NCBI GenBank assembly: GCA_027482195.1
Contig: JAIXWE010000075.1
Span: 1 to 40,088, forward strand
DNA length: 40,088 nt
Direction of reading: 5' to 3'
DNA from: Alphaproteobacteria bacterium
GTDB taxonomy: Bacteria > Pseudomonadota > Alphaproteobacteria > Micavibrionales > Micavibrionaceae
Part shown: positions 4,265 through 9,303 of the stretch, one piece after another
How positions within the stretch are numbered: the first letter of the stretch is position 1
How the letters are laid out: each line of letters opens with the position of its first letter
Program-made: the position numbers and the translations under genes
Notes under the pieces: model-generated
What the model was told of the DNA's origin: nothing
The model's input: the letters and a program-made list of their open reading frames with translations, nothing else
Database searches by the model: none

Positions 4265-5176
4265 ATGCAAATTTATCTACCCATCGCGGAAATGTCTGTG
4301 CCGCTTGAACTCATTCTTGGGTTGGGGACGGTTGTTGGTTTTTTGTCGGCGGTGTTTGGTATTGGTGGTGGCTTTTTGGCGACACCCTTTTTAATCTTTC
4401 TCGGCATTCCGCCCTCGATCGCCGTTGCAACGCAAGCTAATCAACTTGTTTCTGCGTCACTTACATCATCACTGGGGCATTGGCGGCGCGGCAATGTTGA
4501 TATCAAATTAGGTGCTTCGATGTTTTTGGGAAGTGCGGCGGGAAGTTTGATTGGTGTCTTGCTTTTCGGTTTTTTAAAACATATTGGCCAGATTGATACG
4601 GTGATTAATCTTTTATATGTCGGTGTGTTGGGTTCCATTGGTGTGATGATGTTTCTTGAAAGTTTGCGCACCTTGCGGCACAGCCCCACGGCGGATGCGC
4701 GTCCACTTCCGAAGTGGTGGTTGGAGTTTATCAATAAACTCCCCGCACAGAGGGTTTTTCCAAAATCGAAACTGCAAATCAGCCTTTTTGTGCCATTAAG
4801 TATTGGGTTTTTGGGTGGTTTGATGGTGTCGCTCATGGGAATTGGCGGTGGTTTTTTTCTTGTTCCTGCGATGATTTATTTGTTGGGTATGTCAACATTG
4901 TTGGCGGTGGGGACATCTTTGTTTCAAATCTTTCTGACAACGGCGTTGACAACTTTGCTGCACGCAACAGCCACCTCTTCTGTCGATCTTGTCTTGGCGG
5001 TGTTATTAATTTTGGGTGGAATTGTCGGGGTTAAATTAGGGTTACGCGCAAGCCCTTATATTCGCGGAGCCAAGGCACGTTTGGTGCTTTCGGTGATGTT
5101 GATTTTGGTATGTTTGCATCTGGCGCAAAAATTGTTTCTGATGCCGCCCGATTTATATATGATTCAGGAGCGGTGA
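4265..5176 (+). CDS. TSUP (TauE/SafE) family membrane transporter
   Basis: A 303-residue polytopic membrane protein of the sulfite exporter TauE/SafE family, members of which export sulfite, sulfonates or related organic anions. Two inverted halves are visible. The first carries VFGIGGGFLATPFLIFLGIP followed by AVATQANQLVSASLTSSLGHWRRGNVD; the second carries LMGIGGGFFLVPAMIYLLGM followed by AVGTSLFQIFL. These repeated GIGGGF motifs are the family hallmark. A strong CTGGAGG lies just upstream of the ATG. The gene abuts the next one (stop 5174-5176, start 5177), a TIGR02186 protein, and this pairing is widespread in alphaproteobacteria. The substrate cannot be read from sequence. Confidence 0.92.
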   Translation: MQIYLPIAEMSVPLELILGLGTVVGFLSAVFGIGGGFLATPFLIFLGIPPSIAVATQANQLVSASLTSSLGHWRRGNVDIKLGASMFLGSAAGSLIGVLLFGFLKHIGQIDTVINLLYVGVLGSIGVMMFLESLRTLRHSPTADARPLPKWWLEFINKLPAQRVFPKSKLQISLFVPLSIGFLGGLMVSLMGIGGGFFLVPAMIYLLGMSTLLAVGTSLFQIFLTTALTTLLHATATSSVDLVLAVLLILGGIVGVKLGLRASPYIRGAKARLVLSVMLILVCLHLAQKLFLMPPDLYMIQER

Positions 5177-5896
5177 ATGCGTTCAATTTTTCTTCTTACC
5201 ACTCTTATTCTTTTCTGTGCCCCATCGGCTTCGGCACAAGATGTGTCTTCGATTATTTTAGATGTTGCGCAAGAACAAGTGAGTATCACCGCAGGTTTTG
5301 ACGGTGCCAAGGTGGTTGTCTTTGGAACGGCCTCACCGCAAGACCAAATCACCATCACCTTAAAAGGTCCACCGCGGAATATGATTGTTAGGCGCAAGAA
5401 AAATATTCTTGGCATGTGGCTGAATGCTGTGTCGCAGGAGTTTCGCAATATTCCTTCTTATTACAGCTATGCCATTTCTTCTCCTGATTTTAAGGTAAAA
5501 GTGGGGCTTGATGCGCTTGATCTTCCGGGTGCAGAGTCTGTGTCTTCTCTTCAACAAAGAGATTTTCAAGACGCGCTTGTGCGTAATTTACAAGCCCAGA
5601 ATTTATATGCAACCGATGCCGTTCCCGTGTTACGCCCGGGTGGCAATTTATTTCGTGCGGAATTTAATTTGCCGCACAATACCCCCATTGGGGCATTTAC
5701 ACTTGAGGCAACCGCTTATCGTGAAAATGTGATTATTGGCCGCACGCAACGTGTCATGCGGGTGATTCAAACGGGGGTTACGGGGCAAATTCAAAATTTT
5801 GCCCTGGATTATAGCTTTGCCTATGCTTTGTCTGGGCTTATAATTGCCTTGATGGCGGGACTGGGGTCCTTCTTTTTAAGCCGCCGCGATGTATGA
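5177..5896 (+). CDS. TIGR02186 (Alph_Pro_TM) membrane-anchored periplasmic protein
   Basis: The 239 residues begin with a signal peptide (hydrophobic 3-16, likely cut after ASA near residue 20), followed by a beta-rich periplasmic region and a single C-terminal transmembrane helix (about 215-234) that ends in SRRDV on the cytoplasmic side. The segments VSITAGFDGAKVVVFG, TLKGPPRNMIVRRKK and LGMWLNAVSQEFRNIPSYYS match the alphaproteobacterial family TIGR02186/PF09608. Its role is unknown. The constant link to a TSUP transporter suggests a periplasmic partner of that exporter; this is inference from neighbourhood. It overlaps the next gene by the 4-base ATGA at 5893-5896. Confidence 0.9.
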   Translation: MRSIFLLTTLILFCAPSASAQDVSSIILDVAQEQVSITAGFDGAKVVVFGTASPQDQITITLKGPPRNMIVRRKKNILGMWLNAVSQEFRNIPSYYSYAISSPDFKVKVGLDALDLPGAESVSSLQQRDFQDALVRNLQAQNLYATDAVPVLRPGGNLFRAEFNLPHNTPIGAFTLEATAYRENVIIGRTQRVMRVIQTGVTGQIQNFALDYSFAYALSGLIIALMAGLGSFFLSRRDV

Positions 5897-6423
5897 GAAA
5901 AAATATGATGGAGCCTTTACATTCCTCTTCTGAATCAATGCACCGCCCGCCGCGCCGTGGTGATGGCGGCGTATATTTGGTTGTCGTTGATGACAGTCAA
6001 GAATGCAAGCTTGCTGTGCGCTATGCGGGACGCCTTGCCGCTTCGCGCCGTGGTTATGTGGCCTTGTTAAAAATAATTGCGGGCGATGAATTTCAAGCAT
6101 GGGGGCGCGTTGAAGCAAAACTGCGTTTGGAATTACGTCGCCAGGCTGAGAATGACCTTCTCAAAGCAGCGGCCGAACTTTATGAGTTAAGCCAAAGGCC
6201 AGCCGCACTTTACGTGGCGGAAGGTGATGTGCGTGACGCTTTGTTACAAACAATTGCCATGGATGACACCTTAACAATGTTGGTTCTTGGCGGCGGGGTG
6301 AGTGCTGCGGGACCCGGGCCTTTGGTGCAACATTTTACAACAAAAGTTCTCGGAAAATTGACAATTCCTGTTGTTATCGTACCGGGTAATCTTGATTCTT
6401 CACGCATTGACGCTATTACTTAA
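5893..6423 (+). CDS. Universal stress protein (UspA domain)
   Basis: A single UspA domain in 176 residues. A hydrophobic first strand, VYLVVVDDSQECKLAVRYAGRLA (about 27-50), gives the acidic nucleotide-site residues. The C-terminal MLVLGGG ... GPGPLVQHF ... LTIPVVIVPG block is the loop and last strand of the fold, a version of the Gly-rich ATP loop. The start overlaps the stop of the TIGR02186 gene by 4 bases, so it is translationally coupled. About 25 non-conserved residues precede the domain; an internal ATG at 5905 is an alternative start. Usp followed by nfu is a common alphaproteobacterial order. Confidence 0.88.
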   Translation: MRKNMMEPLHSSSESMHRPPRRGDGGVYLVVVDDSQECKLAVRYAGRLAASRRGYVALLKIIAGDEFQAWGRVEAKLRLELRRQAENDLLKAAAELYELSQRPAALYVAEGDVRDALLQTIAMDDTLTMLVLGGGVSAAGPGPLVQHFTTKVLGKLTIPVVIVPGNLDSSRIDAIT

Positions 6424-6426
6424 GTC

Positions 6427-6978
6427 ATGTTCATTCAAACCGAAGTCACACCCAATCCGCAAACCGTGAAATTTATTCCCGGCCAAGTTGTTCTTGTAAC
6501 CGGCACGGCGGAGTTTCGCGATGCGGCTGAGGCAAAAAATAATTCCCCTCTGGCGGAGCGTTTATTTCGTATCCAAGGTGTTACGGGTGTTTTCCTCGCG
6601 CATGATTATATCGCCGTGACAAAAGAGGATGATAAAGATTGGCTAGGCCTCAAGCCACTTATTCTTGGTGCCTTGTTTGAACATCTCAGCATGAACATGC
6701 CCATTCTTTTGAATGCGCAACAAGACGAAGCGGCGCAGCCGGACACACCGGAAATTCTTCAGATCAAAGAAATCTTGGATCAGCAAGTGCGTCCCGCTGT
6801 TGCGCGCGATGGTGGTGACATTGTTTTTCACAAATTCGAAAAAGGTATTGTGTGGTTGAAATTAAAAGGAGCTTGTTCGGGTTGTCCCAGCTCAACACTC
6901 ACCTTAAAAGCCGGTATTGAAAATATGTTGCGCCATTATATACCAGAAGTTTTGGAAGTGCGCGCGGTTAATGATTAA
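6427..6978 (+). CDS. NfuA/Nfu1-type iron-sulfur cluster carrier
   Basis: Late-acting Fe-S carrier that delivers clusters to apo-enzymes. Two domains are visible: an N-terminal Nfu domain (FIQTEVTPNPQTVKFIPG, residues 2-19, continuing to about 95) and a C-terminal NifU-like domain (about 110-180) with the cluster-binding pair Cys150-x-x-Cys153 in KGACSGCPSS. The 183-residue length fits the alphaproteobacterial and mitochondrial Nfu1 type. It starts 3 bases after the stop of the universal stress gene and converges with the deacetylase-like gene 6 bases downstream. The SIR and house-keeping Fe-S assembly genes are not in this window. Confidence 0.94.
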   Translation: MFIQTEVTPNPQTVKFIPGQVVLVTGTAEFRDAAEAKNNSPLAERLFRIQGVTGVFLAHDYIAVTKEDDKDWLGLKPLILGALFEHLSMNMPILLNAQQDEAAQPDTPEILQIKEILDQQVRPAVARDGGDIVFHKFEKGIVWLKLKGACSGCPSSTLTLKAGIENMLRHYIPEVLEVRAVND

Positions 6979-6984
6979 AGCCGC

Positions 6985-8067
6985 TTATGGCTCTAAGCCC
7001 GTGGCATCATTTGGTTGTATATTTTGCAATTCCGTTTTTTCCGGAAAAGAAAAGAAAAAACCAAGCCAACGATAACGCGTAGGCTCATCGGCAATCTCCG
7101 ACGCTACCGGAATTGTGCAATTTATTCTCAACTTTGTTGAAGAAATCTCTTCATTCACCCTAATCTCAATACGATTTTTTTCTAAAATCACGGGCGTGAT
7201 TTTTCCGGTTTCAGAAGAAAAACAAGACAGATTTTTGGAAGAGATTCCGTCTAAGGTAAAACCGGCCGTGATCGATGATCCGGTTACAAGATTATCGCGC
7301 GGTTGAATATCATGTGCGGGAAGGGGGAGGGCGGTGCTCGCTATTTGAAAGCGCTCCGTATCCGCAAAATCATTCGTCAAAGTGAAGCGCGGCAAACGAT
7401 AAGGATCCGATAGATAAGATGTGACACCAGAGTGCTGCCCGAATGCGGCTGTGAACCCGGCGTTTTTCAAGGCTGTGACAATCTCTTCATTATAAATTCC
7501 CGCGCCATAGGCAAATAAAGTGGGTGTTATATCAAGCTCTTCACGCAGGCGCGCCCGCGCACTGTTTAACCGCACCTCCGTGACGGCTCCATATAAAGTA
7601 AGCCCGATATCAAGATGAGGGTTTTTTTGAATCTTTCTCAGCTCTTCCCAAGTGAAACCATCGTTTTTTTCCTGATCAATATAATCAGGTGTTATAAAAA
7701 GGGTGATTGGAATTTTTTGATCTAAAATTTGTGGCCAAATTTTATTAAAAAAATCAAGGTGCGGATTATCAAAGGTAATCGCAATTGTTGGAGGGGGGAT
7801 ACGCGTGCGATCTTTTTGCGCAGATAAAATGTCATTAAGCGAAATGACATTAACATTTGAGTTGGTTATGATATCGAGATGCTTCAGAAAGTTATCAGCT
7901 AATTCCGAAGCATTAAAATCCGCATCTTGAGGTGTATCAACATAAACAAGAACAGGTGCGGCAGTTGCATCCAACGTATCAAGTGTTGAAGCGAATACGT
8001 TGCCACCAAAAAAAACTGTTAAAACAGCACAAATTAAAGCAAAAAAACCTGTCTTGTGTCTCATCAT
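6985..8067 (-). CDS. Polysaccharide deacetylase-family protein, catalytic motifs degenerate
   Basis: A secreted protein of 360 residues: a hydrophobic signal segment at 8-26, then an NodB-type fold. The family is recognisable from FLKHLDII, WPQIL, AGFTAAFGQHSG (203-214), DPYRLPRF and a C-terminal beta domain ending RINCTIP ... RYRWLGFFFSFP. The active site is not conserved. Where relatives have TFDD/TIDD it has TFDN (98-101); where they have a HTxSH-type metal motif it has IGLTLYGAV (154-162), with no His; where they have FAYPYG it has FAYGAG (185-190); and the usual YH near the N-terminus is YV (42-43). It is probably not a metal-dependent deacetylase. ATG 8067 is preferred; an in-frame TTG at 8085 would add 6 residues. 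Confidence 0.82.
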   Translation of the reverse strand: MMRHKTGFFALICAVLTVFFGGNVFASTLDTLDATAAPVLVYVDTPQDADFNASELADNFLKHLDIITNSNVNVISLNDILSAQKDRTRIPPPTIAITFDNPHLDFFNKIWPQILDQKIPITLFITPDYIDQEKNDGFTWEELRKIQKNPHLDIGLTLYGAVTEVRLNSARARLREELDITPTLFAYGAGIYNEEIVTALKNAGFTAAFGQHSGVTSYLSDPYRLPRFTLTNDFADTERFQIASTALPLPAHDIQPRDNLVTGSSITAGFTLDGISSKNLSCFSSETGKITPVILEKNRIEIRVNEEISSTKLRINCTIPVASEIADEPTRYRWLGFFFSFPEKTELQNIQPNDATGLEP

Positions 8068-8107
8068 AAACGCACTATAATTCAAGCTTCACAGAGAGGC
8101 AAATGCT

Positions 8108-8704
8108 ATGAGCGCACACATGTTAAACGATGATTCCTTAGATATTCTGTTTCGTAATGCGCGTACATTTAATCATTGGCAAAATAAACCTGTTTCCGAT
8201 GTGACGTTGAAGGCGTTATTTGATTTGCTGAAAGCGGCACCGACAAGTGCGAATTGTTCACCGGCACGATTTATTTTTGTAAAAAGCCAAGCGGCAAAAG
8301 AAAAATTGAAATCAACTCTGGCGCCCGGCAATGTTGATAAAACTATGACCGCTCCTGTCACGGCAATTATTATCAATGATCATAAATTTTATGATCAGCT
8401 TCCGAAATTATTTCCTCATACCGATGCGCGCGCATGGTTTGTTGGAAATCAAAAAATGATTGACGATACGGCCGCGCGCAATGGAACATTACAAGGGGCT
8501 TATTTGATCATGGCGGCGCGCAGTTTGGGGCTTGATTGCGGGCCAATGTCGGGCTTTGACGCTGAAAAAGTCAAAGAAGCTTTTTTCCCCGATAAGCCCG
8601 ATTGGCATGCAAATTTCTTGTGCAATCTTGGTTATGGGGATATGGCGGGAATGCACCCGCGCTCGCCGCGTTTTGACTTTTCGGAAGTGTGTGAAATTGT
8701 GTGA
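8108..8704 (+). CDS. RutE/HadB-like nitroreductase family oxidoreductase
   Basis: FMN-dependent NAD(P)H oxidoreductase of the malonic-semialdehyde-reductase branch of the nitroreductase family, 198 residues, the usual size. Visible family blocks are LFRNARTFNHWQNKPV, LLKAAPTSANCSPARFIFV (FMN phosphate site), NGTLQGAYLIMAARSLGLDCGPMSGFD and FLCNLGYGD near the C-terminus. In E. coli RutE reduces malonic semialdehyde in uracil breakdown, but no other rut genes are nearby, so the substrate here is open. GAGAGG at 8094-8099 supports ATG 8108. The stop overlaps the GTG start of tsaB (GTGA at 8701-8704). Confidence 0.88.
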   Translation: MSAHMLNDDSLDILFRNARTFNHWQNKPVSDVTLKALFDLLKAAPTSANCSPARFIFVKSQAAKEKLKSTLAPGNVDKTMTAPVTAIIINDHKFYDQLPKLFPHTDARAWFVGNQKMIDDTAARNGTLQGAYLIMAARSLGLDCGPMSGFDAEKVKEAFFPDKPDWHANFLCNLGYGDMAGMHPRSPRFDFSEVCEIV

Positions 8705-9303
8705 TTATTCTGGGTTTTGATTGCTCTGGTCATGGGTGTGGTGCGGGTATATGCAACGCGGCAACCAAAGACTTTGTTATCTTGCGCGATGAGGAACCGC
8801 GGCGTCAGGCGGAACGCCTTGTTCCTTTGATACAAGATGTGATGAGCCAAGCCTCTCTTACTTGGCAAGATATCACGCACATCACCACGCCGCGTGGGCC
8901 TGGATCTTTTACGGGCTTACGCATTGCGCTTTCGGTTGCGAAATCTTTACGCCTAAGTCTTCAAAAGCCTGTTTCAACACCTGATGCGTTTGCCGTTCAT
9001 GCGCAGGCGCAAAATATTCAAACGAAGAGTTTGATTTTAATTGATACGTTGCGCCGCGATTTTTATGGTCAGGTTACACAGCCCGATGGCACCGCTTTTG
9101 AGCCGGCGCGGATTTATCAAAAAACAGAGATTGAGACGACAACAACCCCCATTATTCATGCTGCGGATATTGATATTCAGGCGCTTTTAAATCTTGCACA
9201 TGCGGGATTTGTGGAGACAGCAGATATCGCGCCTTTTTATTTGCGCGAAGCAGAGGTCAGTCAACCAAAGAATCCTATTGCTGTGCGCAGTGATTTATTT
9301 TGA
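8701..9303 (+). CDS. tsaB: tRNA threonylcarbamoyladenosine biosynthesis protein TsaB
   Basis: Inactive ASKHA-fold partner of TsaD and TsaE in making t6A37 on ANN-decoding tRNAs. The 200 residues show IILGFDCSGHGCGAGI at the start, QAERLVPLIQDVM, and the signature TPRGPGSFTGLRIALSVAKSL at about 63-83. It starts with GTG at 8701 overlapping the previous stop. In many alphaproteobacteria rimI, fur and miaB follow; here the next gene is a J-domain protein on the opposite strand whose 3' end overlaps tsaB by 9 bases, so the usual downstream genes have been moved or lost. TsaD, TsaC and TsaE are not in the window. Confidence 0.93.
   Translation: MIILGFDCSGHGCGAGICNAATKDFVILRDEEPRRQAERLVPLIQDVMSQASLTWQDITHITTPRGPGSFTGLRIALSVAKSLRLSLQKPVSTPDAFAVHAQAQNIQTKSLILIDTLRRDFYGQVTQPDGTAFEPARIYQKTEIETTTTPIIHAADIDIQALLNLAHAGFVETADIAPFYLREAEVSQPKNPIAVRSDLF

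Follow-up and report, generated by a model that had tools for sequence, protein, structure and literature searches.

A PgaB-like gene at a conserved locus

The stretch of DNA analyzed here, referred to as the window, is contig JAIXWE010000075.1 (40,088 nucleotides) from an alphaproteobacterium of the order Micavibrionales (GCA_027482195.1). A coding sequence on its minus strand (6985-8067) specifies a PgaB-like (NodB2) pseudo-deacetylase of 360 residues, and the frame runs from an ATG to its stop codon with no internal stop. An in-frame TTG at 8085, upstream of this ATG, would lengthen the protein by six residues. A putative signal peptide was recognized by eye from the sequence in residues 1-26 (7990-8067, minus strand), with a hydrophobic helix at residues 6-21 and a cleavage-like site, VFA/S. 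The helix is also present in the AlphaFold2 model of the protein, and positions 24 and 26 are most often Ala among the order members (29/47 and 31/47, respectively). The mature part is divided by model and structural match into a NodB2 barrel (residues 31-246; 7330-7977, minus strand) and a C-terminal Ig/Fn3-like beta-sandwich (residues 248-343; 7039-7326, minus strand), which carries the RxNCT and RWRWxG blocks. C282 and C317 are invariant in 47 order members and could form a disulfide within the C-terminal domain. Just 5' of the ATG at 8067, a promoter-like TTGCCT-17-TATAGT (8074-8102, minus strand) was noted as a motif match alone; if real, it would place the transcription start approximately at the start codon. 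A scan of the promoter pattern gave 64 matches against a shuffle mean of 42, and no individual site was taken as evidence.

On the plus strand, a convergent gene at 6427-6978, which we take to be NifU-like, adjoins the pseudo-deacetylase gene across the class. The divergent neighbor at 8108-8704 (plus strand) matches the profile of the nitroreductase family (PF00881), and it is followed at 8701-9303 (plus strand) by a presumably TsaB-like gene, which holds the same place across the class. Three genes at 4265-6423 accompany NifU here in many class members; one encodes an Alph_Pro_TM protein (PF09608), and the other two presumably a TauE-like permease and a universal-stress-type protein. A contaminant contig was ruled out, given that the gene order agrees with that of other order members.

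The window protein belongs securely to the NodB2 group of the polysaccharide deacetylase superfamily. It scores 37.3 bits against Pfam PF01522 (Polysacc_deac_1; curated cut-off 23.1, E 3e-9), and its closest solved relatives by sequence in a PDB search are PgaB and IcaB. NCBIfam points in the same direction, the score against the PgaB equivalog TIGR03938 being 40.9 bits, far under the cut-off of 321.9. AlphaFold2 gave confident models of the window protein, run with 65 relatives (pLDDT 90.3, pTM 0.86), and of the intact Sneathiella ortholog L179 (pLDDT 95.0, pTM 0.90). When residues 31-246 (approximately 200 residues) were compared with solved structures by VIA-align, ten entries, including PplD, IcaB, PgaB, BA0330, and BC0361, were matched with Z scores of 21-24, and the next-best group after the NodB2 entries reached only Z 10. 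Residues 248-343 match common Ig-like folds only (Z 7-8.4). These results bear out an earlier note, made from the sequence of this DNA, which had called the family secure and the frame of 360 residues intact; the AAFGQHSG, DPYRLPRF, RINCTIP, and RYRWLGFFF blocks that it named are all found in the protein.

Loss of catalytic residues in the window copy and its order

The same note had described four changes at the catalytic motifs, and each of them is read correctly. Motif 1 (MT1), usually TFDD, is TFDN at T98-N101 (7765-7776, minus strand), with the metal Asp lost and the catalytic-base Asp, D100, kept. The region of motif 2 (MT2, HxxxH), residues 155-163 (7579-7605, minus strand), contains no His, nor does any position in residues 150-170; depending on the alignment, Y159 may be the conserved Tyr that replaces the second MT2 His in the order. 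Motif 3 (MT3), usually FAYPYG, is FAYGAG at residues 185-190 (7498-7515, minus strand), in which P188 has become Gly. Motif 5 (MT5), usually YH, is Y42-V43 (7939-7944, minus strand). As MT5 sits at the N-terminus in NodB2 proteins, according to the relevant part of PMC10967932, this last change represents loss of the catalytic acid His. Neither a frameshift nor a sequencing error explains the motif changes, given that the family residues around FAYGAG are in register and the frame is open. Measured against a competent CE4 enzyme, the window copy has therefore lost the metal triad, the MT5 His, and the MT3 Pro, and has kept the catalytic-base D100 of MT1 as well as the Arg of the LPRF block (R227). 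The statement that every catalytic motif is lost holds for the former residues and goes too far for the latter two.

Most of this pattern is order-wide and not special to the window gene. A search of 58 genomes from this order, whose membership was set beforehand by kinship, found one ortholog each in 48 genomes, 26-38% identical to the window protein; one of the 48 matches is a contig-end fragment (49% over 44 residues). An in-frame TAG was flagged in two of the 48 matches, and none was seen in the frames extracted afterwards. The metal triad is complete in none of the 47 full-length members, as follows from the counts at its three positions. Gly occupies the metal Asp position in 39/46 members, and Asp is found there in a single one (L024, which lacks both MT2 His residues); Tyr occupies the second MT2 His position in 39/46, and His in none. 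The first MT2 His position is still His in 16/46, and the MT5 His position in 17/46. In the 47th member, L047, the metal Asp is likewise missing and MT2 is without His. The earlier note had proposed to look for the same losses in sister genomes; two replacements, metal Asp to Gly and second metal His to Tyr, recur across the order. The MT3 Pro is present in 45/46 members, the sole exception being the window copy (G188), which is the most degenerate of the order copies read.

With the motif columns excluded from the tree, 52 order rows form one clade (support 100/98); eleven of the named rows were placed in the order by means of a first tree, and this clade is to that extent post hoc. One family member, L139 from Micavibrio sp. 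RYN_474, has an open frame of 641 residues, and the nitroreductase gene lies on its other side. A profile search of the ten order genomes without a match gave no family member, and the protein is therefore dispensable in some members. An escaped paralog was ruled out, with the gene found as a single copy in its own genome and in each matching order genome and its locus the same as in intact orthologs. Besides this gene, the window's own genome has one more CE4 gene, from a different subfamily (L212:1693-2484); TIDD and NHLYNH are present in it and a signal peptide is not visible, and the cell therefore does not lack CE4 enzymes altogether. A CE4 gene similar to this second one was found by pattern in one of three other genomes.

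Orthologs in the rest of the class

Of 241 genomes sampled from the class, 90 have a family member at a threshold of E 1e-20. Nine of the class matches, all of them short, partial, or second ones, were left out (G100, two; G087, G271, G246, G200, G186, and G110, one each; and the second of G215). From 211 loci, 192 were retained after removal of a contig-edge fragment (L048), two repeats (L049 and L056, of L027 and L001), the rows below 170 bits (L047, L130, and L131), and 13 identical cores. The tree was built from 131 of these 192 rows, pairwise at most 62% identical, without L127, L128, L129, L166, and L196.

Among the rows from other orders, 60/79 keep both the metal Asp and the second MT2 His, and 13/79 have neither. 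Gln stands for the first MT2 metal His in 23/79 of these orthologs (L052, L053, L055, L058, L062, L065, and others), and in most of the Gln-type proteins the site is otherwise kept (QTASHPHM), giving an unusual Asp-Gln-His set. All 24 listed Azospirillum loci lack both MT2 His residues, and in the Magnetospirillum-type loci L205 and L207 these positions are Gln and Arg. Besides the family of Azospirillum, at least three further families contain changed members.

Changed and intact orthologs are flanked alike, by a divergent TsaB and/or nitroreductase gene and, at the opposite end, by a convergent NifU gene, a comparison that holds where the fetched stretch reaches the flanks and the arrangement is kept. 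Neighbors common to both kinds of ortholog speak for a replacement in place and not for a stray duplicate.

The smallest number of changes between the intact and the lost state was four on a quick tree and six on a careful one. However, an AU test did not reject a tree with all 70 'lost' rows as one clade (p 0.316), so the single-gene tree is no proof of repeated loss, and the case rests on taxonomy. Three families (f82, f94, and f121) each contain one intact and one changed ortholog. A common locus was seen on the TsaB side for the f82 and f121 pairs, and on both sides for f82; for the f94 pair it was not shown. Such mixed-state families are better evidence for repeated loss than the tree, and the site has apparently been lost in other lineages too.

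Selective constraint

Purifying selection acts on the order members, as observed in sister pairs; the nearest relative of the window copy is approximately 37% identical to it. By a simple counting method, dN/dS was 0.026-0.158 in six close order pairs. One pair with an untrimmed N-terminus gave 0.22, and pairs of the Azospirillum group ranged from approximately 0.06 to 0.53. The flanking genes in five pairs gave values similar to those of the pseudo-deacetylase (nitroreductase, 0.08-0.14; TsaB, 0.14-0.17). The window copy itself has diverged faster than its sisters, with a log-distance ratio of 1.43, which falls inside the range of eight neighboring genes (1.07-1.51).

Mean column identity at the five motif positions falls from 0.898 in intact orthologs to 0.523 in the order, while that of the rest of the barrel changes from 0.443 to 0.377 and that of the C-terminal domain is about equal (0.410 and 0.386). 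D33, N168, and R175 become conserved in the order, and the window copy has all three. The suggestion of a pseudoenzyme and not a decaying gene, for which the earlier note had proposed dN/dS as a check, is supported at the level of the clade by recurrent replacements, dN/dS of 0.03-0.16 in sister pairs, synteny, and a confident fold.

Discussion

On balance, we lean towards the view that this gene is a single-copy NodB2 ortholog converted in place to a non-catalytic pseudoenzyme that binds wall glycan or has a structural role. The putative signal peptide would export the protein to the periplasm, where it would fold as the usual NodB2 barrel with the C-terminal Ig/Fn3-like sandwich. With the Asp-His-His metal no longer held and the MT5 His gone, metal-dependent deacetylation would be lost. 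Binding of cell-wall glycan, probably peptidoglycan, may persist in the groove of the barrel and in the C-terminal domain, and the protein would be kept because it stabilizes or organizes the wall without chemistry. The combination of apparently lost metal chemistry and retained selection suggests that shape matters more than reaction. The closest functional precedent is provided by BA0330 and BA0331 of Bacillus, proteins with NodB2 and Fn3-like domains. In the pertinent sections of PMC4505593, they are described as inactive on the substrates tried, as binding purified peptidoglycan, and as supporting salt tolerance or cell shape, and they are proposed to be wall stabilizers. BA0330 retains its zinc site, and what it exemplifies is therefore a role without catalysis, not the loss of the site.

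A pseudoenzyme without glycan affinity of its own might instead act on a protein partner, as an activator or scaffold of a periplasmic wall hydrolase or synthase in the manner of EnvC or NlpD. D33, N168, and R175 are not among the former catalytic positions, as would be expected of a new interface, the invariant blocks of the C-terminal half are as compatible with an interface as with a glycan site, and a comparison with EnvC has been made for BA0330 (in the same sections of PMC4505593). However, the gene has no conserved operon partner and lies by itself between a divergent and a convergent neighbor, both unrelated to it, and we consider this explanation unlikely. Slightly less likely still is altered catalysis, either by rebuilt ligands (D100, H103, and H157, with or without H43) or by metal-free hydrolysis as in 3CL6. 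Among the 52 order rows, the first MT2 His (H157) is present in 12 (L002, L003, L005, L006, L007, L010, L013, L016, L019, L029, L035, and L043) of the 13 rows that have H103, a co-occurrence with Fisher p 1.5e-5 when relatedness is ignored and with at most three informative pairs when the rows are paired on the tree. The parts of PMC10967932 that deal with solved NodB2 proteins describe the MT1 Asp and the MT5 His as a putative second metal site and include the metal-free 3CL6, and in the part of PMC10838918 on MdaA this enzyme works with Cys replacing the metal Asp. Sisters that keep D100, H43, and H157 may, judging from these residues, still bind metal. A search for alternative ligands found the candidate set D100/H103/H157 in some sisters, but the window copy lacks much of what would be needed, having D100 and H103 and neither H157 nor H43; moreover, position 157 is Leu in 17/46 order members and position 100 is Glu in 16/46.

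Decay of the gene in the window lineage under relaxed selection would account for the loss of even MT3 in this copy, for its rather long branch (1.08 compared with a median of 0.59), and for the absence of the gene from some order genomes. The frame of 360 codons is nevertheless intact and the fold model confident, sisters with related losses evolve under the low dN/dS given above, and the divergence of the window copy is in line with that of the nearby TsaB and Alph_Pro_TM genes. In addition, this copy keeps 39 of 46 conserved columns outside the site against 6 of 11 within it, a concentration of losses that is weak by Fisher test (p 0.04 against all rows and p 0.19 against order rows only). 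We therefore regard decay as very unlikely and retain the in-place pseudoenzyme as the preferred reading.

Comparison with known systems places the protein close to PgaB and IcaB, the poly-GlcNAc deacetylases of the CE4 family (NodB2), with which it shares the barrel (Z approximately 22.5), the N-terminal motif 5, the order of motifs, and the Arg block (PR/LPR). Unlike in these enzymes, the metal and motif 5 residues are lost in the Micavibrionales proteins. In place of the C-terminal Ig/Fn3-like domain of the window protein, E. coli PgaB carries a second domain that is larger, and no pga-like genes adjoin the gene within the window, its neighbors being named by eye. BA0330/BA0331 (BC0361) resemble it as exported NodB2 barrels with a beta-sandwich (4v33, Z 22.0), but differ in that their Fn3 domain is N-terminal and their zinc site intact, and in being lipoproteins of another phylum. 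CE4 pseudoenzymes that have lost canonical function or residues with the fold intact are already known, such as BA0150 (4M1B) and EcCDA (2VYO), as covered in part of PMC10967932, and BA3943 (7BKF), by its PDB title. However, each of these is a single protein from another CE4 subgroup (Z to the window model approximately 10 for 7BKF and 4M1B), and none is an order-wide conversion of orthologs at a conserved locus. The nearest counterpart is the class-wide ortholog of Sneathiella, Nisaea, SAR116, and others, which has the same domain layout, locus, and C-terminal blocks, and differs in keeping the metal Asp and second MT2 His in most rows from other orders. A literature search of the open-access subset found no reported activity for any of the class-wide orthologs, and nothing on the alphaproteobacterial family or its pseudoenzyme state. 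The new element is a conversion that spans the order and concerns a single-copy gene at a conserved locus.

The common explanation of pseudoenzymes is duplication, after which one of the copies can shed its activity. In the present case, a gene with one copy per genome and a conserved locus seems to have been turned from enzyme to non-enzyme in place, throughout the order and apparently in further lineages, with selection retained. A wider proposal, which we hold only tentatively and think doubtful, is that the primary role of the class-wide protein is free of catalysis and that intact orthologs, too, mainly bind the wall. Deacetylation would then be an optional layer, shed repeatedly at one locus in Micavibrionales, in Azospirillum and its relatives, in Magnetospirillum, and in members of otherwise intact families. 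The natural series of intact, partly lost, and fully lost sites lends itself to the question of what CE4/NodB2 proteins do besides deacetylation. In Micavibrio, Azospirillum, and their relatives, the label 'polysaccharide deacetylase' on this gene should not be taken as evidence of wall deacetylation.
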